DNA from: Clostridia bacterium
GTDB taxonomy: Bacteria > Bacillota > Clostridia > Christensenellales > Aristaeellaceae
DNA length: 64,000 bases
Reading direction: 5' to 3'
Assembly (NCBI GenBank): GCA_017509255.1
Contig: JAFWQA010000001.1
Coordinates: 235,785 to 299,784, forward strand
The notes below the pieces were generated by a model, which saw nothing but the letters and a program-made list of their open reading frames with translations, was not told the origin of the DNA and made no database searches. Shown one piece after another: positions 36,540 to 49,367 of the stretch. Within the stretch, counting starts at the first letter, position 1; every line of letters begins with the position of its first letter. A program made the position numbers and the translations under genes.

Positions 36540-36865
36540 GTCGAAGTGGGCGAAGCTCTGACGACTACCAGTGGCAGGATTTTCGTCAGAGCTGAGGTCA
36601 AGCGAAAGGGAGCAAGCTCCACAGTATGGAGTTGCGACCATTGAGCTTGCGGACGGGATTCGATACCGTTTGCTCAATGGTCGCCCGGAACCCTTGGAGC
36701 GGGTTCCGTTCTCCCTTTCGCGCTAACAAACTCAGATCGCTTGCCTTCGGCACTCCCCACTGGGGAGACGCTCTCTTCGTTTGCCGTGGCCGCCGCGGGT
36801 TCTTCTCCCATCAATCCGGATAGCAAAAACCCGGGATACCCACAAGGGGCATCCCGGGTTTTCAT
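36540..36865 (+). repeat. Covarying palindromic repeat, copy 1
   Basis: The copy begins with GTCGAAGTGG, the last bases of tRNA-Pro read on the plus strand, and the same ten bases recur 326 bases later at the tRNA fragment. Stems include GCTCTGACGA/TCGTCAGAGC (36555, 36583), GCTCC/GGAG and CTCCCC-act-GGGGAG (36753-36767). Copies 2 (48965) and 3 (42135) keep the architecture while changing both sides of these stems. It fills most of the gap 36518-37120. Confidence 0.72.
36826..36862 (-). terminator. Terminator hairpin before the tRNA-Pro fragment
   Basis: AAAACCCGGGATacCC with GGgcATCCCGGGTTTT forms a strong stem flanked by A- and T-runs. It is the counterpart of the terminator behind the intact tRNA-Pro at 49252-49290. 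Confidence 0.65.
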
Positions 36866-36866
36866 G

Positions 36867-36908
36867 TCGAAGTGGCGGGATTCGAACCCGCGGCCTTCTG
36901 GTCCCGAA
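36867..36908 (-). pseudogene. Truncated tRNA-Pro: 3' half only (att-type duplication)
   Basis: The plus-strand text TCGAAGTGGCGGGATTCG continues through CCCGCGGCCTTCTGGTCCCGAA. It equals the 3' part of tRNA-Pro at 49294-49335 with one mismatch, from the discriminator base through the T arm to the anticodon loop. The 5' half is absent. Orientation is the same as the intact gene. Confidence 0.82.
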
Positions 36909-37120
36909 TTCGAAAATGTCCTGATTTTTCCGACTCTTTCCGGAAATTTCCGCAAACTGCCGGTTTTTTCTGCTTTTTGCCGGCTTTTTCCGCTTGTTTC
37001 TGGAAATTTCCAAGCGGTTTTAAAGTGGATACTCGGCATTTTCTTCACTTTTAAAGGTGCAATCCCTGGTTGCAACCGGTCGGGTTGCAGCATATCCACA
37101 GGCCGTGCCTTGTCGTTTGG
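36909..37120. repeat. Left-end arm of integrated unit 1
   Basis: This stretch and 42533-42743 are related. Both contain TAAAGTGGA, AAAGGTGCAAT, a TGCAACC-loop-GGNTGCA hairpin, GGCCGT and then the end of a SHOCT gene. Tandem GGAAATTTCC-like words occur here. The motifs AAAGTGGA and TGCAACC..GGTTGCA also occur in the right-end arms, as integrase arm sites might. Confidence 0.5.
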
Positions 37121-37312
37121 TCAAACTTTTGGTTCGCCGCTTGGTTCCATGCCCATCTTCACGGTCAGATCTCCGAGCGACTTGTCGTACTGCGCGCGGT
37201 TGATCGCGCCATGCTCTAGGAACGTGTCGAGCAATTGCTTCTGCCGCAGATAAAGGTCACGCTTCTTTTTCTCGCCAGATGATGGTATTTTATCGTTCTT
37301 TACTGAACTCAT
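37121..37312 (-). CDS. SHOCT-like mini-protein
   Basis: A 63-residue protein. Its C-terminal part QLLDTFLEHGAINRAQYDKS has the shape of a SHOCT domain (short helical hairpin ending many Firmicutes proteins). It overlaps the end of the zinc-ribbon gene by 23 bases, so it is probably translated with it. A close paralog lies at 42744-42950, in the same position relative to the tRNA fragment of the second unit, which links it to the element rather than only to the operon. Confidence 0.7.
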   Translation of the reverse strand: MSSVKNDKIPSSGEKKKRDLYLRQKQLLDTFLEHGAINRAQYDKSLGDLTVKMGMEPSGEPKV

Positions 37313-38750
37313 TATCAATCTCTTCGATTCTCTTAGTAAGCGGAGCCATCTTCCCCTTTATCGCGCTCTTTTCTTTTTCAATCTTATCATTCAGCTGGCC
37401 AGTTAGCTTATCAATTTGATCCTGCAATACTTTTCTCTCTTTGCCTGCAAATATCCCTAAGCTCTTCTTTTGTGCACTTCGAGAATCAATCTGCTTTTTT
37501 AGCAGAACGATTTCATCCTTGCTCTCAATACGACTTTCTTCATCTAAGAGCGCTTGGACTTGCTGTTTTAGCGATGCCTTTTCAGTTGTTAATTTTTCTT
37601 TTTCCTCAGCATGAGCTTTCCAGTACTCTTCTTTCCGTTTTTCCGCTTTCCGTTTTCCTTCTTCTATTGCTGCCTGCTTCTTGGCCTCGTACCCAGCAAT
37701 TTCTTTTCTCCGACTCTCTTTCGCGCCATCTGTCAGAAAATAATCAATATCATAATACTCAGAACGACTCATCACAGCTCCATAGCCATTTGTAGTCGTT
37801 GATATCATTCCTTTATAGCTCACCTGTTCTATTGGAACTTTTGTATACTCTATCATGTTTTCATATATTATGACCTTCGTGTTAGTAGGCGTGGATTCGT
37901 TAAACTGCTTTTCACAAAACTGAAGAAGGTTGACCAGATTTGCAGATTCATCAAGAAAAGTTTGGAATATTGGATGTGCTGGGCGAAATACATCAGAACT
38001 AATGTACTCTTTACGATTGCGATTTCTATTCCAATTAGCGCCATAATTACTCAAATCTTTACGGAAGTAATTGTATGCAACCGTTGTCTTCCATGCAGAT
38101 ACTGAGGTTTGATTGCACATTATGCAAAATAGATTGGCGAAATGCTCAATGTATTCTTTAGGATCTTGGCCAAACTCTTTATAAGCTGACTTAATCCATT
38201 CTATGCTCTCGTTGTATGTCTTTTGTATTTTTAAAAGAGCTGCATCAGTTGGACGTCCAGCTTCAAAATTATTAATCCAGAAAGACAGGTTCACTTCTAA
38301 GCATTCTTTCAGCGCTTTTATTATCTCTTCAGTTTTTTTGTTTTTTTCTTCTTCCTCAAGGTTAGGATTAAGCGCCCGATATGCAGCCATAATACAATTA
38401 TACGCTTCGAGAATACGACAATTTTCCATAGTGAGCTGGAAGTGGATCGCTTGTCCTTTCAATAGCCATGCTTCAACGTTCTTATCATCCATGGCAATTA
38501 CCTGATCACAGAACTCTTCTGCTTTTGTCGGGTTTTTTGAATCAAAAGCGCTATGTGCCATTTTGAGGAGGTTGCTTACCTGGGCGGCATTTGCAATCTG
38601 TACTGTACCTTGTACCTCCACAGTACCCTCAACCATCATTTTCCTGACATCATCAAGAGAATACTTACACCCACATACTTGGCAAACAAAGATTCCATCT
38701 TGCTTCATCAGTTCGTTGCTGCCACAAACTTCACAGGTCAATTGTTTCAT
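37290..38750 (-). CDS. Zinc-ribbon, TPR-like and coiled-coil protein, function unknown
   Basis: A 486-residue protein. Residues 1-30 form a zinc ribbon (CEVCGSNELMKQDGIFVCQVCG), followed by helical repeats (AEEFCDQVIAMDDKNVEAWL, TPR-like). A long charged coiled coil from about residue 355 to the end is rich in K and E. No membrane segment. GGAGG precedes the ATG. It is the third gene of an operon headed by an SPFH protein. Base use is A+T-richer than the flanking genome. Similar zinc-ribbon/TPR proteins often neighbour YdjI-like SPFH genes; the function is not known. Confidence 0.75.
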   Translation of the reverse strand: MKQLTCEVCGSNELMKQDGIFVCQVCGCKYSLDDVRKMMVEGTVEVQGTVQIANAAQVSNLLKMAHSAFDSKNPTKAEEFCDQVIAMDDKNVEAWLLKGQAIHFQLTMENCRILEAYNCIMAAYRALNPNLEEEEKNKKTEEIIKALKECLEVNLSFWINNFEAGRPTDAALLKIQKTYNESIEWIKSAYKEFGQDPKEYIEHFANLFCIMCNQTSVSAWKTTVAYNYFRKDLSNYGANWNRNRNRKEYISSDVFRPAHPIFQTFLDESANLVNLLQFCEKQFNESTPTNTKVIIYENMIEYTKVPIEQVSYKGMISTTTNGYGAVMSRSEYYDIDYFLTDGAKESRRKEIAGYEAKKQAAIEEGKRKAEKRKEEYWKAHAEEKEKLTTEKASLKQQVQALLDEESRIESKDEIVLLKKQIDSRSAQKKSLGIFAGKERKVLQDQIDKLTGQLNDKIEKEKSAIKGKMAPLTKRIEEIDNEFSKER

Positions 38751-38798
38751 GTTGCAACCTCCATCCTTATCAATTAATGTGGTTTCCCTACGTTAACT

Positions 38799-39464
38799 TT
38801 ATTTCAAGGTCTTACACCTTATATTCCGTTCATCTAATAATTCCTTGATTTCACTAATCACGCCCAGTTTGTCACTTGCTACTGGAAGTTCTGCGAATTT
38901 AGCACCAATTTTTGTTTCAACTTCTTTTAACCCATCAACACTCATCGGATCGCTTAAGCGAATTTTCTCCACCAAAGTAGCAAGTTTCTTCTTCACCGCA
39001 GGGTCTTTTTCGCTGCTCATCAAAGCTGTTGCTTCTGTTCTCAAATTCTGGAAAAATTGTGTTTTGCTTTGTATGTGCTCGTCAACCTTGTCGACATACG
39101 CCTTACCACCGCCAACGGCGAAAATGCTAATAAGCATAATGCCCAAAAGAATGACAGAAACAATGATGCAAACCCAGGTTGGTATTGCCGGAACAAGGAG
39201 ATAAATGAACAGTAAAACTGTCTGTAATGTCAAACAAGTCAAGCCGGTTTTTATCGGAGCAAAAGAGAGGAATCCATTTTTCCCTTCTACATGTTTGCTT
39301 GCAGTGCTAACTGCAAATAACAGAAGCAAAAACATTGCGGCCAGAACACCATAAAGCAGCCAAAACGCTCCTGTTCTATTTCCAGGGATCACAAAGCAAA
39401 CAACGCTAATGATAATAAAGCAGACTGCCACTATCCCCAAGAAAGCACCATTAGCCTTTTTCAT
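38799..39464 (-). CDS. Four-segment membrane protein with cytosolic helical tail
   Basis: A 221-residue protein. The first 120 residues hold four hydrophobic segments (AFLGIVAVCFIIISVVCFVI, LLYGVLAAMFLLLLFAVS, LTLQTVLLFIYLLVPAI, VCIIVSVILLGIMLISIFAV). The rest is a charged helical domain (FFQNLRTEATALMSSEKDP) resembling no family I know. GGGAGGG precedes the ATG at 39464, two bases after the SPFH stop, so translation is coupled. Confidence 0.75.
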   Translation of the reverse strand: MKKANGAFLGIVAVCFIIISVVCFVIPGNRTGAFWLLYGVLAAMFLLLLFAVSTASKHVEGKNGFLSFAPIKTGLTCLTLQTVLLFIYLLVPAIPTWVCIIVSVILLGIMLISIFAVGGGKAYVDKVDEHIQSKTQFFQNLRTEATALMSSEKDPAVKKKLATLVEKIRLSDPMSVDGLKEVETKIGAKFAELPVASDKLGVISEIKELLDERNIRCKTLK

Positions 39465-39466
39465 TG

Positions 39467-40645
39467 TCAACCCTCCCTTGGTGTCCCGCACTTGGGACAG
39501 AATTTCCCGGGCTTGATAAACTTAAACCCGCATTTGCTACAAGTGTCCGGTGATGATTGCGGTGCACCACAATTATCGCAGAAAGCCGCACCTGGTGTCA
39601 GTTCTGCACCGCACTGATCGCAAAACGCATTAGCCTGGGCTTGTGGAGCCTCCGGAGTGGATGCCTGAGGATTAAGAGCGCCACCGATTGCATTACCTAC
39701 AAGTCCTCCAACAGCGCCACCTACACCTGCCATAGTTCCTAAGCCAACACCCATATTGGTAAACTGGCCAACAGCTTCATTCTCAGCAACCTTCTCAGCA
39801 ACACCAAACCCGCGTTCCTGTTGATATGTATATCCTTCAGTCGCTCTCTTTTGCGCAAGCGCCTGAGATTCAATCACCATCTGCTGAGCCTTGGTCTGCT
39901 GTTCGATAATGCCAACCTGCTGTTTCAACTTTGCTTCGGCAATATCAGCGTATTGACGGAAATGCAGTTCTTTGAATTTTTCATACTGTTGGTCTCCTTC
40001 CGGCTTTACGACCGTTGTGACCAAGAAACGATTAAGATTTATTCCATAATCAGCAAAATCTGGCGTGAGTTTCTCTTTTAATTCAGCAGAAAAATCTTCA
40101 AGCCTCTCATCAATTTCAAAGATGCTGATCTCGTTTGTGCGCATCGCCTGCGCCATATATGTCTTTACTCTTGTCATAAGGAAGGCCCGGAAGAACCTGA
40201 CAAGCTCGGTCTGAGTCAAGATCCTTTCTGTACCGACCAACTTGACCAGCAGATTACGAGAATCAGCCACGCTGAGACTCATCTCGCCGTTAGCACCAAA
40301 TGAGAGAGGAAATCTATATGTCGGTTCAATGTATTGTACTTTACTGTCCGTACCCCATCTGATTGCCATCTGTTCGGTCTTGTTGATAAAGTAAACCTCG
40401 CAGTGGAAAGGCGTTACTCCGCCTGTAGGAATATTCAAAATCCGTCTTAAGATCGGAATATTCTGTGTCTCAAGCTTATGTCTGCCAGGCCCAAATAAAT
40501 CTAATGCTTGGCCATTAAGAAAAAGAATTGCTTCTTGAGATTCATGCACAATCAGTTGTGACGCTGTGTTGAAATCTTCTGAAGGGTGTTTCCAGACAAA
40601 TGTACTATTATCCCCTTCGTACTTGATGACATCCAGTATCGCCAA
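39467..40645 (-). CDS. SPFH-domain protein with C-terminal zinc ribbons (YdjI-like)
   Basis: A 392-residue protein of the YdjI/virion-core-like SPFH branch. It has IKYEGDNSTFVWKHPSEDFN and HESQEAILFLNGQALDLFGP at the N-terminus, FADYGINLNRFLVTTVVKPE in the SPFH core, a glycine-rich linker, and paired zinc ribbons (CDQCGAEL..CDNCG, CSKCG..CPKCG). The TTG at 40645 was chosen because AGAGGTGG stands before it, homology begins there, and the promoter lies at 40739. SPFH proteins oligomerise at membranes; YdjI is linked to envelope stress. Confidence 0.88.
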   Translation of the reverse strand: MAILDVIKYEGDNSTFVWKHPSEDFNTASQLIVHESQEAILFLNGQALDLFGPGRHKLETQNIPILRRILNIPTGGVTPFHCEVYFINKTEQMAIRWGTDSKVQYIEPTYRFPLSFGANGEMSLSVADSRNLLVKLVGTERILTQTELVRFFRAFLMTRVKTYMAQAMRTNEISIFEIDERLEDFSAELKEKLTPDFADYGINLNRFLVTTVVKPEGDQQYEKFKELHFRQYADIAEAKLKQQVGIIEQQTKAQQMVIESQALAQKRATEGYTYQQERGFGVAEKVAENEAVGQFTNMGVGLGTMAGVGGAVGGLVGNAIGGALNPQASTPEAPQAQANAFCDQCGAELTPGAAFCDNCGAPQSSPDTCSKCGFKFIKPGKFCPKCGTPREG

Positions 40646-40738
40646 CTCAGCCACCTCTTTCTTTAAAATGTCTAATAGTACGCCTAGTTTTTTCACCCTG
40701 TTCGTATTCGGTTGCAAAACTGACAGAAATATCATGTT

Positions 40739-40790
40739 ATTATACCACCATACAAATCCCCTTGTAAACCCTAAACCGGTAACGTTACCG
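40739..40790 (-). promoter_or_regulatory. Promoter and operator of the SPFH operon
   Basis: On the minus strand -35 TTTACA and an extended -10 TGGTATAAT are separated by 18 bases. Just upstream, 40777-40790 is the perfect palindrome CGGTAACGTTACCG with a central CG, the type of site used by LacI-family proteins. No LacI gene is in the window. Confidence 0.75.
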
Positions 40791-40830
40791 ATAACCTAAG
40801 CACAATCATGCCAAGGTTTCCCAAAACAAC

Positions 40831-40854
40831 AAAAAGCCGGAGCCAAAGCTCCGG
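40831..40854 (-). terminator. Terminator behind the integrase remnant
   Basis: The stem CCGGAGC/GCTCCGG with a TTTG loop is followed on the minus strand by CTTTTTG, 11 bases after the integrase stop. Its twin lies alone at 12630-12649. Confidence 0.7.
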
Positions 40855-40864
40855 GAAATCAGTC

Positions 40865-41114
40865 TCAGGTCCCTGTCTGGGGGAAAAACAGCATGTTGCC
40901 CCGCGGTTTCTGCCAATGACCCTTTCTGGCCGCGGTATCCACCTTCTTGAATACGTCTGCCAGATCGTCCGCAGTGGTCTGGTACTCGTTGTGCCCCACG
41001 ATCTTCATGGCCTTCAGAGGGTCAATCCCAGCCCGGTAAAGCATGGTTACGAAATTGTGCCGGTAGTAGTACAGGGTCAGTGTATCTTTCTTGCCATAAT
41101 AGTATTCAGATCTT
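40865..41114 (-). pseudogene. Tyrosine recombinase (integrase) remnant, C-terminal catalytic part
   Basis: A minus-strand frame of 82 codons without a start encodes TLTLYYYRHNFVTMLYRAGI and MKIVGHNEYQTTADDLADVF. These are the RHxxxT.L..G and GHxxxQTT blocks of phage-type integrases. The catalytic-tyrosine segment that should follow TTA is replaced or deleted, and an in-frame TAA precedes the fragment. It is most likely the decayed integrase of the surrounding element. Confidence 0.78.
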
Positions 41115-41152
41115 TATTTACTCATCTTGTCTTCAATCTAACAGCATTACCA

Positions 41153-41698
41153 TCATAGCTGGTCTCCATCATAAGCACAACATTTTATGCCTTTTTTGCA
41201 ACAGGCAGCAGCTTCATTGAGCAAATCGCCATGATTTACTTTTATTCGACGAAGTCGTTTTACCTCATTGTATAAAAGCTTTGCATACTCATAGCCTTGT
41301 TTTGCTAGTTCCTCATTCTTCCCTATCTTATCATGGAAGGCTGCTCCATCCTTGTAGAGACCATGGACACGTATATCTCGTTCTCTAATCCAATTTCTTA
41401 GTTCCCCCTTATCAGTAAAAAAGTGGTTAGGCAGCTTCGATTTAGAAAAAATGTTTCTATTCTTGTTCCTATATGCCCGGAGGCATTCGATCCTTGTACT
41501 GATCTTTACATCCTTTCTGCACCGGCATCTCTGGCCACAAGGTAAGCCAAGAACACCACAAACCGATTCGAGCCTAGATTCGATCGCAGCATATTCCATC
41601 AAAATCGCCTCAAGGTAATAACCATTCTGGATTGCATATTCGCATCGAATAAAGAAGTCAGTATGCATTTTGACCAGATTATTCTCCACTTCTGTCAT
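41153..41698 (-). CDS. HEPN-like helical protein
   Basis: A 181-residue, all-helical basic protein. NGYYLEAILMEYAAIESRLE and IRERDIRVHGLYKDGAAFHD look like a HEPN-type four-helix bundle, and RDIRVH gives the R-x4-H motif of HEPN ribonucleases. Two cysteine pairs (GQRCRCRKD, AACCKKGIKCC) are unusual. It has its own promoter and GAGGAGG before the ATG. A defence or toxin role is possible, but no antitoxin nucleotidyltransferase is adjacent. Confidence 0.6.
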   Translation of the reverse strand: MTEVENNLVKMHTDFFIRCEYAIQNGYYLEAILMEYAAIESRLESVCGVLGLPCGQRCRCRKDVKISTRIECLRAYRNKNRNIFSKSKLPNHFFTDKGELRNWIRERDIRVHGLYKDGAAFHDKIGKNEELAKQGYEYAKLLYNEVKRLRRIKVNHGDLLNEAAACCKKGIKCCAYDGDQL

Positions 41699-41766
41699 CT
41701 CTTTGTCCTCCTCGTAATTATTGTTTTATGCTTCTGACCACTCTACTCTCACCAATCTATAAGATT

Positions 41767-41795
41767 TATATATCACAGATGATTGCCAATGTAAA
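41767..41795 (-). promoter_or_regulatory. Promoter of the HEPN-like gene
   Basis: On the minus strand -35 TTTACA and -10 TATATA are 17 bases apart, about 69 bases before the ATG. Confidence 0.68.
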
Positions 41796-41947
41796 CAAAA
41801 GCTCTGCAATCTCGCACATTCATTTATGTTTCAGTTTCTGGTTTTCGATTTCCGCTACCAACCGAACATTTGTATCACCAGTTGTTGGACTCATGGCACT
41901 CCCTCCGCGAAAACCCGATTCAACGGAGGTTGTGGTCAAGCTACATT

Positions 41948-42133
41948 TTAAAGTAGGCATTTCAAAAGCGAAAAGAAACGGTTATTTCCGGAAATAGACG
42001 AAAGCGACTTTTTGGCATCTGCAGAATAGTGCCTCAAAGTGCTGTGCAACCCGTCAGGCTGCAAACCGGAAAAAACGGAAATTCTGCCAGAAAAGTTAAA
42101 AGCCAAGGGGCATTGATTTACAATGTCCAGGGG
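41948..42133. repeat. Right-end arm of integrated unit 1, with decayed terminator
   Basis: Related to 48778-48964: AAAGTRGRCATTT, AAAGCG, then TGCAACCCG-loop-GGYTGCAAACCGG, and finally the terminator family (here decayed: ccaaggggcattga ... caatgtccagggg). The palindromic repeat follows at once. In the gap 41699-42743 the only other items seen are the promoter at 41767, the repeat and a tRNA fragment. Confidence 0.55.
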
Positions 42134-42134
42134 A

Positions 42135-42510
42135 GTCGAAGTGGGCGAGGAACCGATGACCGCCTGTGGCGGAAATCTCATCGGTTCTGAGGTCAAACTT
42201 TAAGGAGCAATCTCCCGTGTGGGGAACGAACTGAGTGGTGACCCAGTGGGTCCATTCACCGTAGGTGAAAACGAAGTGAGTGAGTCAACCGAAGCAAGCA
42301 GCGGGCTGCAGCGTCAGCAAAGCCAGCTGCGCCGACTGAGGTTGCGGAGAGTTGCGACTATAAAGTTTGCAGGTGGGATTCTCCTTCGGGCCGCAACTTC
42401 AATCTTCGCACTGCTCCCTTGGAGCGGTCGCATTGCTCGTTTCGATTGATTCGTTCGTCTCTCTTCCGTCTGCGGCGGACAGCACACTGTGCTGACGTTC
42501 GGCTCGCTCA
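42135..42510 (+). repeat. Covarying palindromic repeat, copy 3 (longest)
   Basis: It begins GTCGAAGTGG. Stems are GAACCGATGA/TCATCGGTTC (42150, 42178) around CCGCC-tgt-GGCGG, AAACTTTA/TAAAGTTT, GGTGACCC..GGGTCCATTCACC (42237-42260) and CAGCAC-act-GTGCTG (42480-42494). An inner block missing from copies 1 and 2 matches the copy at 13.7 kb, and the block near 42420 is its reverse complement. The whole is therefore a large imperfect palindrome. Confidence 0.7.
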
Positions 42511-42532
42511 CCCGCGGCCTTTTGGTCCCGAA
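42511..42532 (-). pseudogene. Short tRNA-Pro fragment (second att-type duplication)
   Basis: CCCGCGGCCTTTTGGTCCCG plus AA equals 22 bases of tRNA-Pro (T-stem edge to anticodon loop), in the same orientation as the intact gene. The acceptor and T-loop part is missing here. Confidence 0.65.
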
Positions 42533-42743
42533 ATCGAGAACTATGAATTCCAACCTCGGGTTTCCCCGCATGGCCGCATTTCCTCCGGTAAAGCCATCAA
42601 AAGGCCCTGTTTTTCCGCATTTGGCCGGCTCTGGCCAGCCATTTATAAAGTGGACATTCTGCCTTTCCGGACAATTCTAAAGGTGCAATTCGCGTTGCAA
42701 CCCGATTGGCTGCAGCACCCCCCGGCCGTATCTTAGCCTTGGG
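42533..42743. repeat. Left-end arm of integrated unit 2
   Basis: Counterpart of 36909-37120: TAAAGTGGACATTCTGCC, TAAAGGTGCAATTCGCG, TTGCAACCCGATTGGCTGCA and GGCCGT, leading into a SHOCT gene whose 3' end is nearly identical to that of the first unit. Confidence 0.5.
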
Positions 42744-42950
42744 TCAAACTTTGGGGTTGCCGTCTGGTTCCATGCCCATCTTCACGGTCAGATCCCCGAG
42801 CGACTTATCATACTGCGCGCGGCTGATCGCGCCATGTTCCAGGAACGTATCCAGTAATTCCTTCTGCCGCAGATAGAGGCCACGCTTCTTTTCCTCCGCG
42901 GTCATCGATTCCTTTTCCACCGTGTTCACCTGATCCTTCATCCTCATCAT
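42744..42950 (-). CDS. SHOCT-like mini-protein, paralog of 37121-37312
   Basis: 68 residues from the first ATG. An ATG at 42905 after AAGGA would give 53 residues and may be the true start. LYLRQKELLDTFLEHGAISR and the tail KMGMEPDGNPKV are nearly the same as in the paralog, while the N-termini differ. No SPFH operon accompanies this copy, so the conserved context is the element end, not the operon. Confidence 0.68.
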   Translation of the reverse strand: MMRMKDQVNTVEKESMTAEEKKRGLYLRQKELLDTFLEHGAISRAQYDKSLGDLTVKMGMEPDGNPKV

Positions 42951-43019
42951 AAAAAGCCTTGGCAGGATTCATGTTCCGGGTTTTCATCCGCTCCATAACC
43001 GGAAGACGGCCCTCTGCTG

Positions 43020-43607
43020 TTACAATATTCTGCGCATGACTGCCTGCCCTTTTTCCCTGGCAACTTCAATAAATCCTGCTTTCTGATAAAGGCATAAAGG
43101 ACCCTGATAATCAAAATCATTTCGTTGGTCAGAGAGTTTCGCGTACCCTTCAACAGCAGCATATCCCTTTGATCCGGCATCTGTACAGATGCTGTCAATG
43201 AACGCTGATGCTATGCCCATTCCACGGTATTCAGGTGCGATTTCAAAACAAACAATCGAGATCGTTTTCCCGCAGGCGATCTCCCTCGCAAACGCAGGAA
43301 CGAACCCGGCATAGCTCTCCATATCCGCCGCATTGCACCATCCGACAGATTGATCTCCGTCATAAGCAAGGTATCCGTGAATCTGGTTCCTGCCAAGCAT
43401 TTCTGCCGCATGTTTGCGCAGCGTCTCTTTCACGCCGTATGTTTTAAACTCACGGACCATCTGTTCAATCTGTTCTGGTTCCTGATTGGGGGAAGTGCAA
43501 TAACACGGGCCGTTCGGATTATCATCCGTAAAGGCTCTGTGATCAAAAAAGTCAAGATAATCAGCGCTCAATTCAGCGGTCAACGGCCGGATAACGATTG
43601 TTTTCAT
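43020..43607 (-). CDS. GNAT family N-acetyltransferase
   Basis: A 195-residue GNAT with FDHRAFTDDNPNGPCYCTSP at the N-terminus, SIVCFEIAPEYRGMGIASAF as the core strand and loop, and LYQKAGFIEVAREKG at the C-terminus. GGAG precedes the ATG with 10-base spacing. It lies 15 bases downstream of the kinase gene in one minus-strand operon (44617 to 43020). Confidence 0.9.
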   Translation of the reverse strand: MKTIVIRPLTAELSADYLDFFDHRAFTDDNPNGPCYCTSPNQEPEQIEQMVREFKTYGVKETLRKHAAEMLGRNQIHGYLAYDGDQSVGWCNAADMESYAGFVPAFAREIACGKTISIVCFEIAPEYRGMGIASAFIDSICTDAGSKGYAAVEGYAKLSDQRNDFDYQGPLCLYQKAGFIEVAREKGQAVMRRIL

Positions 43608-43622
43608 CAGGCATTCACTCCG

Positions 43623-44108
43623 TTAATCCTCTATATGCTTTTTCATTTCCCTGACAATTTCCCGGACGCCTTTGTTGTCTGTTTCAATCAGAATATCCCC
43701 CGGGCAGGGCGGAAGATGTAACCAGTAATAATTCGTTTCGCCTTTATCACCCCTTTTGTCATGCCGCTTCTTCAGCGTTTCCTCCGAGCAGGTCAGCGTA
43801 AAGGAGACGGTTTCGTAATCTTTCGCCGTGATCCCCTTCAGGATGCCTTCCCGGATCTTCGGATCCGTCAGTACGACCGAGGTGAAAAATACATATTCAA
43901 AATCCGAATCCAGATAGTTGGAGAGAATAAAGGACATGCTTCTGTCTCCGTTACGGAGCCGGCTGTCCGTAACGGAAAACGGATGCACACACCAGCACCA
44001 GTCCCCGTCCAGATAGGCGCTGTTGCCATAGCTTTCAAAAAGCCGTGTGCCCACAGCCGTCTTGCCGACGCAGGGAGATCCGCTGATGAGGATCAGCTTC
44101 TTCTTCAT
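43623..44108 (-). CDS. P-loop kinase-like protein
   Basis: A 161-residue protein with Walker A ISGSPCVGKTAVG near the N-terminus and a second acidic motif AYLDGDWCWCVHPF. The lid region is basic (LKKRHDKRGDKGE). It resembles the AAA/zeta-like small kinases, as at 13948. Its ATG overlaps the previous GNAT stop by four bases. Substrate unknown; antibiotic kinases such as chloramphenicol phosphotransferase share this fold. Confidence 0.82.
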   Translation of the reverse strand: MKKKLILISGSPCVGKTAVGTRLFESYGNSAYLDGDWCWCVHPFSVTDSRLRNGDRSMSFILSNYLDSDFEYVFFTSVVLTDPKIREGILKGITAKDYETVSFTLTCSEETLKKRHDKRGDKGETNYYWLHLPPCPGDILIETDNKGVREIVREMKKHIED

Positions 44109-44617
44109 TGCCCGGCTTTCTCCTTTGCTGCAAACCTGAACAACGGATCCCCGTTTTCTTCCGTACCGTACTGCGCCATGCCGCCCTTCTCCATCGCCCG
44201 GGCGGAGGCGATATTCTCTTTGGCGCAGCCGCCGTGCACGCCGGAAAGCGCGTAATCCTCCGCGGCGATCCGCAGCAACGCCTTTACGCATTGGGTTCCG
44301 TATCCCTTGTTTCGGTATGCTTCATCCAGCAGGATGAAGATTTCAGGCTCTGAATGATTCCTCGTGCCGTCCAGCCCGCACCATCCCATGATTGTTCCGG
44401 GATCATTTTTTTCGCACACCGCCATGCACAGGTGAAAAAGACAGCCTTTCATATTTCTCCCGTAATATCCGCGCATATAGGCAATTGCTTCCCGCGCCTC
44501 TGTGTCAGAGAGCGGATGATGATCAGCGGGCCAGGTCCTTGCGACTTCTGTCAGGTCTTCCTCCGTAACGTAATGAAGGATCAGGTTTTCCAGTTGATAA
44601 TCCGTCATGTCATTCAT
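44105..44617 (-). CDS. GNAT family N-acetyltransferase (RimJ/RimL-like)
   Basis: A 170-residue GNAT with PEIFILLDEAYRNKGYGTQC and CAKENIASARAMEKGGM. The ATG at 44617 follows GAGGAAGGATAAAGGG; the open frame to 44767 is unsupported. It is first in a three-gene unit (GNAT, kinase, GNAT) with coupled translation. Confidence 0.88.
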   Translation of the reverse strand: MNDMTDYQLENLILHYVTEEDLTEVARTWPADHHPLSDTEAREAIAYMRGYYGRNMKGCLFHLCMAVCEKNDPGTIMGWCGLDGTRNHSEPEIFILLDEAYRNKGYGTQCVKALLRIAAEDYALSGVHGGCAKENIASARAMEKGGMAQYGTEENGDPLFRFAAKEKAGQ

Positions 44618-44771
44618 CCCTTTATCCTTCCTCTTTTTTGTATCCGGCATATCGTTCACACCGGCAGCAGCTTCCTGAGAATCAGCCGGTCCTTTTCCAA
44701 TCTTGGAATATACCTGCATTCTTTCAGCATCTGTTCTCACTCTCCGATGGAGAAGAAGCTTTGTCATAATT

Positions 44772-45842
44772 TCATTTCAGGCCTTCATACCATCTGACTG
44801 CCCGCTCTGTCCATCCGGCAATGCATGTACCGGTTCCGTCCGCAAAACCGTGCCCGCCTTCCGGGCCGATCTCCAGTCTGCAGGGAATCTGCAGCTTTTC
44901 CAGCGTACGCGCAAGCAGCTTTGAGTGGCCCAGCAGATCATCCCCTGCCATCACAAAGATCGCGCAGGGCGGGAACCCTTCCGCATGTTCCGGACTCTCG
45001 TAGGCTTTTTCCATCGCTTCCGTGAACGGGCAGCCGTACAGGCGCATATCCTCCCGTTCATCCTCTTCCGGGTTTTCTTCTTCGCCTTCTTCCGGAACAT
45101 ATTCTTCTTCAGCCAGCCTCAGGCTGACAAAAGGATAGATCGGGAACGACGCCTGCGGCTTCGGCAGGCTGAAAGCCGGATACCCCATCTCTGTGTTCCA
45201 AAGACAGATCAGCATCCCGCCCGCGGAAAAACCGCATGTGATATACCGGCCCGCCTGTACGTGGAAATGCTTTTCCTTCTCCCTGATCAGCTGCAGCGCC
45301 CGGGCCATATCCACCATATTCTTTTCCAGCAGTCTTTCTTCTCCGTCCACCTGGTAGGTCACGATGAACACATGGTATCCCTCGCTGTTGAACTGCGCCG
45401 CCACCGGCCAGCCTTCCGTCAGGTTCCAGACGTTCACAAACCCGCCGCCGGGCACCAGCAGGATAAAGGGCTTTTCATCCGCCTTCGGATCGTCCGACGG
45501 AAGCCATACCATATTGACATTCCTGCGGGCTTCGTCCTCCGCGCATTCTGCCTCGCTGTACAGTGGATAATACCAGTCTCCCGTATCCGCCGCGTCATAC
45601 AAGCGCTGGAAGCCCCGGCCGATATCGCCGAAAAAGAAATGCTCGTCCTGCAGCTGTGCCGGCGTCTTATTCCACACTTCTTCCCTGCTCAGGTCCCTGT
45701 TGCGGATCGCGTCCGGCGCGATCTTCCTGATCCGCGGATCTGACAGCAATTCTCCCAGTGTTTTTCTTTCATCGATCATTTCAGTATTCTCCCATATTTG
45801 TAATTTCTGCAGTGCGGTTGGATAAGCTTTCATCTCTGTCAC
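44772..45842 (-). CDS. Alpha/beta-hydrolase (BD-FAE/esterase-like)
   Basis: A 356-residue protein with the oxyanion loop LLVPGGGFVNVWN, the nucleophile elbow CGFSAGG, and acid/histidine regions VMAGDDLLGH and GPEGGHGFADG. These are typical of feruloyl/acetyl-xylan-esterase-like hydrolases. An acidic insertion (EEGEEENPEEDEREDM) is unusual. No signal peptide, so it is cytosolic. The first 25 residues may be extra, since further in-frame ATGs follow. Confidence 0.88.
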   Translation of the reverse strand: MTEMKAYPTALQKLQIWENTEMIDERKTLGELLSDPRIRKIAPDAIRNRDLSREEVWNKTPAQLQDEHFFFGDIGRGFQRLYDAADTGDWYYPLYSEAECAEDEARRNVNMVWLPSDDPKADEKPFILLVPGGGFVNVWNLTEGWPVAAQFNSEGYHVFIVTYQVDGEERLLEKNMVDMARALQLIREKEKHFHVQAGRYITCGFSAGGMLICLWNTEMGYPAFSLPKPQASFPIYPFVSLRLAEEEYVPEEGEEENPEEDEREDMRLYGCPFTEAMEKAYESPEHAEGFPPCAIFVMAGDDLLGHSKLLARTLEKLQIPCRLEIGPEGGHGFADGTGTCIAGWTERAVRWYEGLK

Positions 45843-45887
45843 TGCAATTCACCGGTTTCAGCTCCATCCGTATTACCATTTTCTTTC

Positions 45888-46889
45888 TTAATAAAATTCA
45901 ATCATTCCAAACCCTTCCTCACATGAGAGTTCAGAATAACATTCGATTGTTTCCGGTTTAAGTTCCACCGGCAGTATTGGAGAGCCCAGCACCGCAGCAA
46001 TCTCCAGCGCGTCATGCTCATTGGATGACATATAAATAAACCCTTTTCCATCTGTTATAGCGCTGTTTACGGTCGGCGCCATCAGTTCTTCGCCATCCAG
46101 CCGGATCGCAATTTCCTTTCCGATGCTTTTGGCAGTCACTTCAGCAAAGAGCTTTGTGCCATCTTCATTCAGTGAAAAGGCAATTCCCCGGGCATCGTTA
46201 TCCTGATACTCTGCAGATGTTAGCATATCCCCCGTCATAAATACATTGCCATCCGGATCAACAAACTCCAGTTTTCCCTGTCTGATAATCGTATCAAACA
46301 TCGTCTTGTCCTGCCTGCGGGGGACATCAATCCGGATTCTGTCTTTTCCGGCTTTTTCCACCGTTGCATCCTTCCAATACCACCGATTGATCCGCTCCCG
46401 CAGAATGGCCACCGTGGTATCAATCAGTTCATCGGCATTCTGTTCTGAACCTTCAGGGATGATGCACTGATATTCTGCTCTCGTTCCCATCTGGAACTCG
46501 GCTTCCTCGCCTTCCGTTCTTCCCAGCACGTAAAGGGATGAGCTTAGATCCATGAGCAGGAAATCCTTATATGTTTTCAGTCTGGCTTTAAACCGTCCCA
46601 CGGCCAGATCACCAATGATCGTGATTCCTTCCTCATCCTCGCGCCATTCAGAAACGATAACATCCTCCCGGTCAAGGCCACGCACTGTTCCGGTTCCGTC
46701 TTCATTGAATTCAAACGACATTTCACTCGGATTCGCCCATTTTGCCAGACTTGAGCCCGGTGTATATTCATAATTCCGGTACCAGGTTCCTGCAATCTTT
46801 TCCTTCAGGGACTCTCCGCAGCTCACGCCGCAGACTGTAACCAGCAACACCAGAACCATCAGCAACCCAATACTCTTTTTCATAGTCAT
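45888..46889 (-). CDS. Secreted protein with a SecD ectodomain-like C-terminal part
   Basis: A 333-residue protein with a signal or lipoprotein-type leader (LLMVLVLLVTVCGVSCGES; cysteines fit a lipobox only weakly). Residues 25-130 look lipocalin-like (IAGTWYRNYEY). Residues 150-320 match the SecD P1 domain: TVAILRERINRWYWKDATVE, GKLEFVDPDGNVFMTGDML and IAIRLDGEELMAPTVNSAIT. No membrane segments follow, unlike SecD itself. The role is unknown; it may bind exported proteins. Confidence 0.78.
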   Translation of the reverse strand: MTMKKSIGLLMVLVLLVTVCGVSCGESLKEKIAGTWYRNYEYTPGSSLAKWANPSEMSFEFNEDGTGTVRGLDREDVIVSEWREDEEGITIIGDLAVGRFKARLKTYKDFLLMDLSSSLYVLGRTEGEEAEFQMGTRAEYQCIIPEGSEQNADELIDTTVAILRERINRWYWKDATVEKAGKDRIRIDVPRRQDKTMFDTIIRQGKLEFVDPDGNVFMTGDMLTSAEYQDNDARGIAFSLNEDGTKLFAEVTAKSIGKEIAIRLDGEELMAPTVNSAITDGKGFIYMSSNEHDALEIAAVLGSPILPVELKPETIECYSELSCEEGFGMIEFY

Positions 46890-46975
46890 TCTTCTCCCGG
46901 TTTTCCTGTCTCGTTAAGCAGGCATTTTGTATTATTATACCTTCTCTATCAGCATATTCCAACAGTGAAACCCAC

Positions 46976-47116
46976 TCACATCTCAGAACTTCCCCAGTCG
47001 TATTCCAGGGTGCATTTTCCCGTGTCCAATGTTGCCTTGACACCGCTGGGAAGGATAGCGCTGTTTTCACCGTGGCCGAAATCGTCCGAATATGCGACGG
47101 GAATCCGACCATCGAA
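46976..47116 (-). pseudogene. Remnant of an S66 (LD-carboxypeptidase/MccF-like) gene
   Basis: A start-less frame of 46 codons reads GRIPVAYSDDFGHGENSAIL, then PSGVKATLDTGKCTLEY and TGA. This is the C-terminal end of S66 peptidases (the DFGH block holds the catalytic histidine). The upstream part is out of frame or lost. The rest of the gap 46890-47391 shows only a 31-codon ORF (47156 to 47254, minus) with a fair ribosome site and no recognisable product. Confidence 0.6.
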
Positions 47117-47391
47117 TACTCATAACAAATATCATTTACACATACTCTCCGCAGTATAAGCTGATTTCACCAAAGGCTTTTTCCCACCTGCCAATGATTA
47201 TTTCATGCCTGGCACTGATGATCAGCATCATATTTTCTCCCTCCGATGTCCTGCAGAGGCACTTTGAGTAAGTAAGTTCCAATTTCATTATAACAGAAGG
47301 GGAGGCTTGTATCGACGATCAGACGATGCTATGGTTCTTTCTTCTTGTCAAAGATATCCCGGCATACTGGAATTGTCGGGATTAACACGCA

Positions 47392-47808
47392 TCACTTGAA
47401 TGCAAACACGATATCATCGGAAGCGGCATTGCAGATTCCCCCTGCTTTCTCATAACACCTGCAGGCAGAAACATTGTGCTTATCAGTAACCAGAAACATT
47501 TTGCGGCAACCCAGGGTTTTCGAATGTTCGTGAACAAACCGGACAAGTTCCGTTCCGTAACCTTGATTTTGCCATCCTTCCATAACGTCAATTGCGTGAA
47601 GATAGTATACTTTTTGCCCGTTTGGCTCATTCAGAACATAGCCGTAAGCAAATCCGATTGCTTTTCCGTTTTCTGCAACAATATATCCGTATGCGTTCTT
47701 TTCATTCAAAAACGCCTTCAGCACGGCTTCATCGTATTTCGTATTCTCATCATCAACAAAGTCAAGCATCAGTGCAAGATTTTGTTCTGCTAACAGTTCA
47801 CACTTCAT
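47392..47808 (-). CDS. GNAT family N-acetyltransferase (AAC(3)-I-like)
   Basis: A 138-residue GNAT with KVYYLHAIDVMEGWQNQGYG and KHNVSACRCYEKAGG. Size and the YYLHAIDV strand resemble the AAC(3)-I/AAC(6')-type branch, but drug acetylation is not implied. GGAGG lies seven bases before the ATG. It is 19 bases from the flavin reductase gene upstream and is likely in the same transcript. Confidence 0.87.
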   Translation of the reverse strand: MKCELLAEQNLALMLDFVDDENTKYDEAVLKAFLNEKNAYGYIVAENGKAIGFAYGYVLNEPNGQKVYYLHAIDVMEGWQNQGYGTELVRFVHEHSKTLGCRKMFLVTDKHNVSACRCYEKAGGICNAASDDIVFAFK

Positions 47809-47827
47809 ACGCTTGCCTCCGGCATCA

Positions 47828-48487
47828 TCAGTATTCCATCACATCTATCTTTTTCTGCAGTACAGCCGCATAATCATGTCCGGTTTTCATCACATGTTCC
47901 GGATTCATCTGGTAATGAATGTTATAAAGAAGTCCCTCTTCGCCAGTCCTGTCTTCCAGATGATCCTCATCGATATGCACAACCAGCACTTCCAGGCAGA
48001 TCATCACATGATCGTCTCCCGGTACGACCTCTTTTTCCCATACATACCGGCATTCCAGGTTCATAAAGCATTCTTTGACCATCGGGGCGTTTACCCGGCT
48101 CGCTTTTTCCACTGTCAGCCCGGAAGCTGTAATCTCGTCTGCCTCAAATGCATTGTTCCGGATGGTTGCCATGCAGGCGGCATGGTAATCTGCCGACATG
48201 AAATTGATAACAGCTTCCTGCTGTTCCTTTATGGTCTGATAAAAGTGTCCGTTTTTATTCACGCTGGCCAGGATTGCATAGAAACCCTTGCCCTGGTCAG
48301 CACTGGTGAAAGCAGCCCAGGACTGCATACAGGCGTTGGGCAGGCCGTTTGATTTATAAGTGGTTGCCAGAAACAGCGGCGACGGCACCGTCGCCACGAA
48401 CTCCTTCCATGAGAAGCCAAAGTTCCTGGAATAATCAGCATAGGTTCCCTTCAGGCTTTCCGGCATTTCAGAATAGATGTGTTTCAT
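47828..48487 (-). CDS. Flavin reductase-like FMN-binding protein
   Basis: A 219-residue protein of the flavin-reductase split-barrel family. It has PSPLFLATTYKSNGLPNACM as the FMN loop, SVNKNGHFYQTIKEQQEAVI and VEKASRVNAPMVKEC. It should use FMN for NAD(P)H-linked reduction. AAAGGAG precedes the ATG. Confidence 0.88.
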   Translation of the reverse strand: MKHIYSEMPESLKGTYADYSRNFGFSWKEFVATVPSPLFLATTYKSNGLPNACMQSWAAFTSADQGKGFYAILASVNKNGHFYQTIKEQQEAVINFMSADYHAACMATIRNNAFEADEITASGLTVEKASRVNAPMVKECFMNLECRYVWEKEVVPGDDHVMICLEVLVVHIDEDHLEDRTGEEGLLYNIHYQMNPEHVMKTGHDYAAVLQKKIDVMEY

Positions 48488-48515
48488 CCGTCTGCTCCTT
48501 TCTTCTCCCGGTCTT

Positions 48516-48569
48516 TCAGATCCGTCTGTACTGAACAGCGCAGCTGTCCCTGTCCGGACTGCACTTTTT
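48516..48569 (-). pseudogene. 3' fragment of a GNAT gene
   Basis: 17 codons ending TGA read KKCSPDRDSCAVQYRRI and match the end of the GNAT at 24481-24909 ([17 protein letters not shown]). Similarity stops abruptly upstream, so only the 3' tip of a paralog remains. Confidence 0.7.
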
Positions 48570-48775
48570 TGTATTATGAGTTATTTTCTGAGCTCTTTGA
48601 CCATCATGATGCGTTTCCCCTGATCCTCATAATCCGAATATATCAAGCATAAATATCCACACTTTTTCCTCCCGAAACACCTGCCCATTATCATCGTCAA
48701 CCGTTAGATTTTTCTGTAATTATCTTAACAAACGAAAAACAAATTGTCCATCTGTCAGGAATTGTAACGAGAAAT

Positions 48776-48931
48776 ATCAAAGTGGACATTTTCAAAGCGG
48801 AAAAAGCTGGAAATATGCGGAAATTCCCGGAAGTGATCTTTTCCGTCTGCCAAACCAGTGCCTTGGCGACCTGCTGCAACCCGGCAGGTTGCAAACCGGA
48901 AAAAAGCGGAAAACCCGCTGGAAAAGCAAAA
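48776..48931. repeat. Right-end arm of integrated unit 2
   Basis: Counterpart of 41948-42102: CAAAGTGGACATTTTC, AAAGCGGAAAAA and the hairpin TGCAACCCGGCAGGTTGCA followed by AACCGGAAAAAA. The short hairpin also appears near 22255-22275 and in both left arms. The gap 48488-49293 otherwise contains the GNAT tip, a terminator and repeat copy 2. Confidence 0.55.
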
Positions 48932-48964
48932 CCCCGGGAGCATAGATCTTCAATGTCCCGGGGA
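48932..48964 (-). terminator. Orphan copy of the shared leftward terminator
   Basis: The stem CCCCGGGA..TCCCGGGG is followed on the minus strand by TTTTGCTTTT. No coding gene stands just upstream on that strand. The sequence is nearly identical to 13862-13893. Confidence 0.65.
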
Positions 48965-49292
48965 GTCGAAGTGGGCGAAGCTCTGACGACTGCCAGTGGC
49001 AGGAGTCTCGTCAGAGCTGAGGTCAAACTTTAAGGAGCAATCTCTCCTGTGGAGAGTTGCGACTATAAAGTTTGCGGAGGGATTCGATACCGTTCGCTCA
49101 ATGGTCGCCCGAAACCCTTGGAGCGGGTTCCGTTCTCCCTTTCGCGCTAACAAACTCGGGTCGTTTCCGGCTTTGCCGGACAGCCCACCGGGCTGACACT
49201 TCCCTCGTTTGCCGCGGCCGCCGCGGGTTCTTTCCCATCATTTCGGATAGCAAAAACCCGAAGCACCCATGAAGGGCACTTCGGGTTTTTGT
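48965..49292 (+). repeat. Covarying palindromic repeat, copy 2 (next to intact tRNA-Pro)
   Basis: It starts GTCGAAGTGG; the same ten bases at 49293-49302 are the tRNA-Pro 3' end. Stems are GCTCTGACGA/TCGTCAGAGC (48980, 49008) around CTGCC-agt-GGCAG, GCAATCTCTCC-tgt-GGAGAGTTGC, AAACTTTA/TAAAGTTT and CAGCCC-acc-GGGCTG (49181-49195). It is alignable with copy 1 over about 370 bases including the tRNA part. Confidence 0.72.
49252..49290 (-). terminator. Terminator of the tRNA-Thr/tRNA-Pro transcript
   Basis: The stem ACCCGAAGTGCCC/GGGTGCTTCGGGT with a five-base loop is followed by TTTTT on the minus strand, four bases after tRNA-Pro. Confidence 0.8.
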
Positions 49293-49293
49293 G

Positions 49294-49367
49294 TCGAAGT
49301 GGCGGGATTCGAACCCGCGGCCTTTTGGTCCCGAACCAAACGCGCTACCAAACTGCGCTACACCTCG
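49294..49367 (-). tRNA. tRNA-Pro(CGG)
   Basis: 74 bases on the minus strand fold into a complete cloverleaf: acceptor CGAGGTG/CACTTCG, D stem GCGC/GCGC, anticodon stem TTTGG/CCAAA around TTCGGGA (anticodon CGG), and T arm GCGGGTTCGAATCCCGC. CCA is not encoded. Its 3' half is the apparent integration site for the elements to the left. Confidence 0.95.

Follow-up and report, generated by a model that had tools for sequence, protein, structure and literature searches.

In a 64,000-nucleotide stretch of a Clostridia bacterium genome (family Aristaeellaceae; contig JAFWQA010000001.1, positions 235,785 to 299,784; hereafter the window), a palindromic repeat is present in three copies, beginning at positions 36540, 42135, and 48965. 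We find that each copy combines independent repeat units, unit A on the plus strand and unit B on the minus strand, with an additional unit, C, nested within A in the 42135 copy. Units A, B, and C are likely to be mobile DNA hairpins, related to one another and non-autonomous, whose stem pairing has been kept because they moved in a folded form. We treat A and B as separate units because the front and back parts of the window repeat recur independently in relatives; 35 of 61 genomes match the repeat, and all 35 are among the 37 members of the window's genus. All three stretches lie downstream of a tRNA-Pro(cgg) gene (49293-49367), at the borders of two gene islands (Table 1).

A reading of the window made from its letters alone (the sequence-only reading) had noticed that the copies change both sides of several stems and had proposed selection for structure. 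The stems are indeed found where they were reported. One is GCTCTGACGA/TCGTCAGAGC in the 36540 and 48965 copies and GAACCGATGA/TCATCGGTTC in the 42135 copy; CTCCCC/GGGGAG, CAGCCC/GGGCTG, and CAGCAC/GTGCTG are stems of the second unit. A further stem reads CTGCC/GGCAG at 48965 and CCGCC/GGCGG at 42135, as reported, but is imperfect at 36540 (CTACC/GGCAG). The three copies fold better than 100 shuffles of each (z -7.4, -6.4, and -3.4).

Selection for paired structure is borne out by the larger set of A copies. RNAalifold yields 33 pairs on our alignment (A1), 25 of them changed on both sides; this alignment was made from 36 candidates, omitting L028 and L033, whose 5' part could not be aligned, adjusting four ranges by hand, and adding nine further copies with hand-computed coordinates. 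In the 43 aligned copies (42 distinct), we counted pairs in a 40-pair structure of our own choosing and compared the counts with those from shuffled alignments and from the same structure slid along the alignment. Pairing is seen in 88.1% of cells compared to 75.6% in shuffles, and double changes affect 31 of the 40 pairs and 212 cells, as against 18.6 pairs and 58.3 cells in shuffles. Kinship of the copies inflates counts of double changes, but the slid controls retain that kinship, and sliding destroys the signal: the best slid version has 28 double-change cells. Because none of 500 shuffles reaches the observed pairing and double changes, and slid structures fall far lower, chance can be excluded.

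Unit A is 105 bp long and B, on the opposite strand, about 120 bp; at about 100-130 bp, all three units are too short to code for a transposase. Across the 43 aligned A copies, which come from many genomes, mean column identity is 85% and two domains can be recognized. The 5' domain forms a long stem that has a GA/GA mismatch close to the base, together with an asymmetric internal loop and a loop of three bases (mostly AGT); the 3' domain follows the pattern CNNC-GAAA-NN-GA-(hairpin)-GA-N'N'-ATTGA-GNNG-CGG. The GA/GA mismatch is kept at three sites in 74, 77, and 64 of 90 A copies, and some copies have ordinary pairs at such a site instead. B and C share a conserved 7-nt loop and have a 3' domain related to that of A, but their 5' domain differs; in the DNA we fetched, 52 of 202 matches to the 3' domain have no adjoining A-type 5' domain. 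The ends of A are sharp and its flanks unconserved (92 copies): G occupies the first position in 90 and the second in all 92, the preceding base is random, and the last bases, TGCGG, are followed by A in 64 of 92. There are no terminal inverted repeats; the palindromes are near-terminal, A inserts next to GG, and tandem A copies have the junction GG in common. The units nest in one another and in H, another hairpin repeat of about 100 bp (TTGAG...GATCGCA) that also has covarying stems and is seen in stretches of two related genomes, G036 and G023 (e.g., L189, L204, and L205). In two other loci (L075:1600-1790 and L112:2410-2600), A occupies the loop of a bigger inverted repeat, and the arms of that repeat show compensated differences from one locus to the other.

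Searches with a covariance model (R1) find 42, 40, 36, 34, 34, 30, 18, and 8 copies of A in eight members of the genus, as well as four clear matches and one weak match in the window's own genome; these numbers are lower bounds because such searches score only part of the candidates. Under stricter filters, A has no match in 196 genomes outside the genus: of 200 genomes drawn from the order, only the four genus members match, and the listed non-matching genomes include nine that belong to the same family but to other genera. Scanning public genomes with a pattern returned 56 stretches, 41 with a true A copy, and these 41 contigs are clostridial metagenome-assembled genomes, many from ruminants. 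The same scan of IMG/VR returned four stretches, two of them true. IMG/VR contigs L147 and L148 carry A, which in L148 adjoins a tRNA-Pro-like remnant; this could be the edge of a provirus, or host DNA.

Comparison of G036 and G023, whose 25 longest aligned blocks in the first region are 89-99% identical, shows that A is cleanly present in one and absent from the other at three sites within two paired regions of 400 kb each (Table 1). Among the 11 A matches in G036, two are shared, two are cleanly absent in G023, five have disturbed flanks, and two have no orthologous flanks; for the eight matches in G023, the corresponding numbers are two shared, one cleanly absent in G036, two disturbed, and three without orthologous flanks. 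At the three empty sites, at most GG is shared, and with the junctions altered by 1-3 nt no target duplication longer than about 2 bp can be claimed. H is likewise present or absent between the two genomes. We do not claim that insertion occurs preferentially within hairpins; pairs spanning the insertion point number 7.8 compared to 7.5 in controls, and fold z is -1.6 compared to -0.6 (mononucleotide shuffles).

The sequence-only reading had left it undecided whether the structure acts as RNA or as a DNA hairpin. A transition in a C-G pair yields G-T or A-C depending on the arm, and without strand-specific tolerance the two should be about equally common. We therefore counted both in near-full-length profile matches to A with E up to 1e-6 and no N (93 copies, 90 distinct). 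Among 3208 cells in the 90 distinct copies, there are 24 G-T and 31 A-C. In contrast, 35 tRNAs from the same DNA have 25 G-T and 7 A-C in 420 cells, although this control kept those of 36 sequences that form at least 10 of 12 pairs, a filter that favors pairing; an earlier, cruder control with 18 tRNAs gave 13 G-T and 6 A-C. The rate of G-T is 0.75% in A and 5.95% in tRNAs, and the ratios differ (Fisher P 0.0019). Because G-T is not more common than A-C, A bears no sign of selection as an RNA of that strand. Nor does A have a preferred orientation relative to genes: of 76 copies analyzed, 72 could be classified, 21 lying in the same direction as their neighbors, 18 opposite, 18 between divergent genes, and 15 between convergent genes, with 4 edge cases. 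Gene calls here rely on a simple open reading frame heuristic, and copies with less than 900 bp of flank or with repeated flanks were omitted.

The units could instead be structured RNAs, either small RNAs or cis-regulatory elements, with stems compensated to maintain the RNA fold. Strong covariation would suit such a role, as would the conserved tandem GA motifs, the 7-nt loop of B and C, and the three A units that stand head-to-tail right before a probable GTG-start gene (L018:1506-1815). The wobble result is also not uniform: G-T exceeds A-C in the B and C sets (33:14 and 37:13) and numbers 10 to 5 in H, an excess that would fit one strand acting as RNA or as single-stranded DNA. Of the 43 keys in the B set and the 48 in the C set, 40 are common to both, and the B count omits three doubtful outer pairs in which RNAalifold had paired a near-invariant G and T; with these included, G-T rises to 104. 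Against an RNA stand the missing wobble preference and orientation bias of A and the patchy presence between two related genomes. In Rfam, only tRNAs match the window at the gathering score, and at E up to 1 in four loci only tRNA reaches that score, the eight weak sub-threshold matches being taken as chance. The A core was also considered as a hammerhead ribozyme for its resemblance to the motif CUGACGA...GAAA and dropped, as those bases covary as a stem. For A, we favor DNA over RNA because there is no G-T excess, orientation is even, and insertions are cleanly present or absent at three sites; B and C leave some room for RNA, but as an account of the units as a whole we find it unlikely.

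The setting of the window copies at tRNA-Pro raised the question of whether copies always sit at tRNA 3' ends. They do not: a tRNA-like stretch can be detected within 150 nt of 12 out of 93 A copies, compared to 0 of 151 control windows. This is a lower bound, in that the test misses the copies in the window itself, where the tRNA pieces are short. The association of A with tRNAs is enriched, not universal. For B, the fraction is 29 of 50, in a set found by similarity to the window, which favors tRNA-associated copies. In nine of the twelve loci displayed (L003, L010, L030, L032, L038, L055, L085, L126, and L183), the order is a tRNA (intact in seven), a terminator, a reversed tRNA piece, A, and a forward tRNA 3' end; B units precede the same forward 3' end in other loci. 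The reversed piece gives a clear blastn match in L183 (28 nt, 93%) and L055 (17 nt), is short in L003 and L038, and elsewhere was judged by inspection. The two halves of such a tRNA-Pro 3' end stand on either side of A in the window, as GTCGAAGTGG before it and GGGATTCGA after it. The earlier statement that two copies are bounded by the tRNA-Pro 3' end can be refined: GTCGAAGTGG opens all three copies, and the tRNA-Pro 3' end follows those at 36540 and 48965, with a shortened piece behind the 42135 copy instead.

The islands themselves may be of the tRNA-integrating kind: conserved ends and tRNA 3' fragments are seen both in the window and in fetched loci. Across the genus, the ends of tRNA-Pro(cgg) islands (window 36866-48974 and L238-L250) recur, with TTTTCCGC iterons and a GGTTGCAACC-type palindrome, while their genes differ. 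An end query (48760-48935) matches 12 of 16 fetched loci, which had been preselected for hits to the window repeat, and the segment 37096-37273 is repeated at 42719-42896 with 85% identity. A Pfam scan of ten window proteins found no integrase, and in twelve island regions, a few of them possibly incomplete because they are truncated at contig ends, a crude pattern search found an integrase motif in L243 only; six genomes have 2-4 tyrosine recombinases each. One cargo protein of the window (45888-46889) combines SecDF P1-head domains with a start that looks, by eye, like that of a lipoprotein. The best reading of the link to tRNA-Pro is that old attachment sites served as insertion places and were carried along with the islands. 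A, B, and C would have come to lie in the remnants of tRNA-Pro 3' ends that two cargo islands left behind, which would account for the GTCGAAGTGG borders.

Two other readings give the tRNA setting a larger role. In the first, shape is inherited more faithfully than sequence, branch B settles at palindromized tRNA 3' halves, and the folded unit together with the tRNA palindrome forms a single-stranded landing or excision site for islands that lack an integrase. The layout in question, downstream of tRNA genes, comprises an inverted piece of the tRNA 3' half, an apex, the hairpin unit, and the forward tRNA 3' end. We regard this as an unlikely extension of the data. In the second, the repeats are folded recombination sites of tRNA-Pro islands used for cassette exchange, like integron attC sites, which are fold-conserved palindromes at the borders of cargo cassettes. 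The position of the window copies at the borders of two cargo islands speaks for this, and the island in L250 has a B/C-type unit at both flanking tRNA-Pro fragments. Most A copies, however, lie away from detectable tRNAs or cassette borders; 81 of 93 have no detected tRNA-like stretch within 150 nt, although this test misses short pieces. In L245, L247, and L248, the T1 terminator and island end follow tRNA-Pro directly, leaving no space for A or B, and the core boxes of attC sites (RYYYAAC/GTTRRRY) were not noticed by eye, no search for them having been made. An attC-like role is therefore improbable.

The matched arms could also come from a mutational process, such as template switching or quasipalindrome correction, in place of selection; in A, changes to both arms are common and wobble intermediates rare, as such a process would predict. 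But the 13 most similar pairs of A copies, with 1-4 differing columns, have 10 one-sided stem changes and a single double change, whereas 71 nearest-neighbor pairs have 123 double and 62 one-sided changes. One-sided changes in close copies and double changes in distant ones are what is expected if only well-paired copies spawn new ones. GA/GA mismatches are also retained, though correction would erase them, and we consider this explanation very improbable. Finally, a classical miniature inverted-repeat transposable element moved by a DDE transposase, its long-range palindromy arising from chance nesting of A and B, would likewise be non-autonomous, many-copy, and mostly between genes, but A lacks both terminal inverted repeats and target duplications above about 2 bp, and we give this already disfavored idea almost no credence.

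We return, then, to mobile DNA hairpins. In the mechanism we propose, the element would be exposed as a single strand and fold, and the folded form would be recognized through the geometry of its stems together with the conserved mismatches and loops. An enzyme acting in trans, most plausibly a single-strand transposase of the Y1/HUH type, would then paste it elsewhere. Only copies competent for pairing could be moved, such that spreading lineages would have compensated stems while resting copies decay.

Several observations weigh against mobile DNA hairpins as an explanation. In addition to the G-T excess in B and C, the three empty sites have 1-3 altered nt at their junctions, one of the three inserts (167 nt) carries a further insert, GG is a weak target signature, and the pth locus, tried as an empty site, proved to be a replacement rather than a clean insertion. 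A is also not strictly intergenic, as 16 of 76 copies overlap an open reading frame of at least 150 codons. No mobilizing enzyme is tied to the family. Y1 transposases are present in seven of eight genus genomes tested, including genes of RAYT size, but 19 of 20 Y1 loci have no hit within about 1.5 kb to the A profile or to single queries for B, C, and H, and no Y1 gene was found in the window's own genome, which is 74% complete. The sole Y1 locus with an A copy has it beside an IS200-size gene (155 aa). Y1 genes also occur in 25 of 77 genomes from the family's other genera, two with RAYT-size genes, so that the association is weak. RAYTs were rejected as mobilizers, being present in the genus but not linked to the units. 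Likewise, a search for a parent element, in which a gene would separate the two domains, found none in 2.8 Mb of fetched, partly overlapping DNA (not whole genomes); six candidates with separated domains were discarded, each split by just 69-87 nt. In L221:503-1186, a RAYT-size gene adjoins a tandem DNA repeat, possibly a REP family of its own.

The sequence-only reading knew of no described family that fits. At the level of the family this holds: our literature searches found no description of it, which is not proof of absence. Its anatomy, in contrast, is of a known kind, that of the transposase-free PATEs, with near-terminal palindromes, and of REPs. According to PMC3119063, the PATEs of Haloquadratum, which are related to IS605-type elements, resemble A in having near-terminal palindromes without terminal inverted repeats and in being too short for a transposase; they lack target duplication, where A shows at most a shared GG, and are likewise many-copy, with strain-specific insertions and palindromes hit by other small elements. 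Their palindromes match resident IS605-type elements, whereas in the 2.8 Mb of fetched DNA and the 20 Y1 loci (19 of them empty), we found no IS200/IS605 element matching the ends of A. A also differs from PATEs in its covarying stems, its conserved GA/GA mismatches, and its host, a gut clostridial genus. REPs are also palindromic, dispersed DNA repeats, and in E. coli a conserved stem mismatch is required, with restored pairing abolishing activity (PMC3733652, PMC8266576). The palindromes of REPs, however, measure 20-40 bp and carry a GTAG or CGTC tag, whereas our units are 105-130 bp, two-domain, and untagged (PMC3733652, PMC8266576). Neither tag appears in the consensus or end logo of A, and none of the 20 Y1 loci has copies flanking a RAYT gene; CGTC-type REPs also lack RAYT-flanking copies (PMC3733652). 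The BOX elements of Streptococcus pneumoniae, compared here by description, not sequence, are likewise small, modular interspersed repeats with strong predicted folds, but consist of tandem boxB arrays, while here the modules are whole mobile units that nest (PMC3049150). Because the DNA searched held no resident parent for A such as PATEs have, and A has neither the tag nor the RAYT linkage of REPs, we conclude that these non-autonomous hairpin elements, though of the same general kind, make up a new family.

Table 1 Features of the window and sites of A insertion in two related genomes.
Feature	Position	Strand	Basis or remark
Unit A copy 1, 105 bp, two hairpin domains	36548..36652	+	covariance model R1, 117.1 bits, E 4e-23
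Unit B copy 1	36666..36785	-	B-profile copy at L001:1627; high end read off sequence
T2 terminator-like hairpin of tRNA-Pro, diverged copy	36806..36862	-	blastn 79%
tRNA-Pro 3' fragment, tRNA positions 33-75	36866..36908	-	blastn 98% over 43 nt; putative attachment-site remnant
Cargo island 1, SPFH and zinc-ribbon genes	36866..42144		limits estimated from two tRNA-derived ends
Cargo island 1, conserved end with TTTTCCGC-type iterons	36918..37273		matches in other species
Unit A copy 2, split by unit C	42143..42372	+	R1 54.6 bits, left part 42143-42224; end read off sequence
Unit C within A copy 2	42221..42347	+	76-83% to free-standing copies elsewhere; copy L006:1587; high end read off sequence
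B/C-type unit at tRNA T-arm	42391..42512	-	B-profile copy L006:1757; high end read off sequence
tRNA-Pro fragment, positions 33-55	42510..42532	-	blastn 100% over 23 nt
Cargo island 2, GNATs, abhydrolase, SecD-like, flavin reductase	42510..48974		estimated limits
Cargo island 2, conserved end, terminator T1, and GTCGAAGTGG	48760..48975		end query 48760-48935
Unit A copy 3	48973..49077	+	R1 118.9 bits, E 1.6e-23
Unit B copy 3	49090..49213	-	B-profile copy L002:1626; high end read off sequence
Intact tRNA-Pro (cgg), presumed integration target	49293..49367	-	ARAGORN and Rfam RF00005
A insertion	G036 stretch 1, 222926		empty site GATTT-GGGTA-ACAAC
A insertion in tRNA-like D arm	G036 stretch 2, 181149		empty site CTCAG-TGGGTA-AGAGT
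A insertion, 167 nt	G023 stretch 2, 146645		itself with a further insert

Compensatory changes are usually taken as proof of a functional RNA, and to a covariance model A looks like a structured RNA; because of the wobble test, the orientation relative to genes, and the strain comparison, however, it points to mobile DNA. This calls for caution in the automatic discovery of RNAs, and the ratio of G-T to A-C is a simple discriminator that others can apply. The family itself is a clean test case for single-strand, structure-directed mobility.

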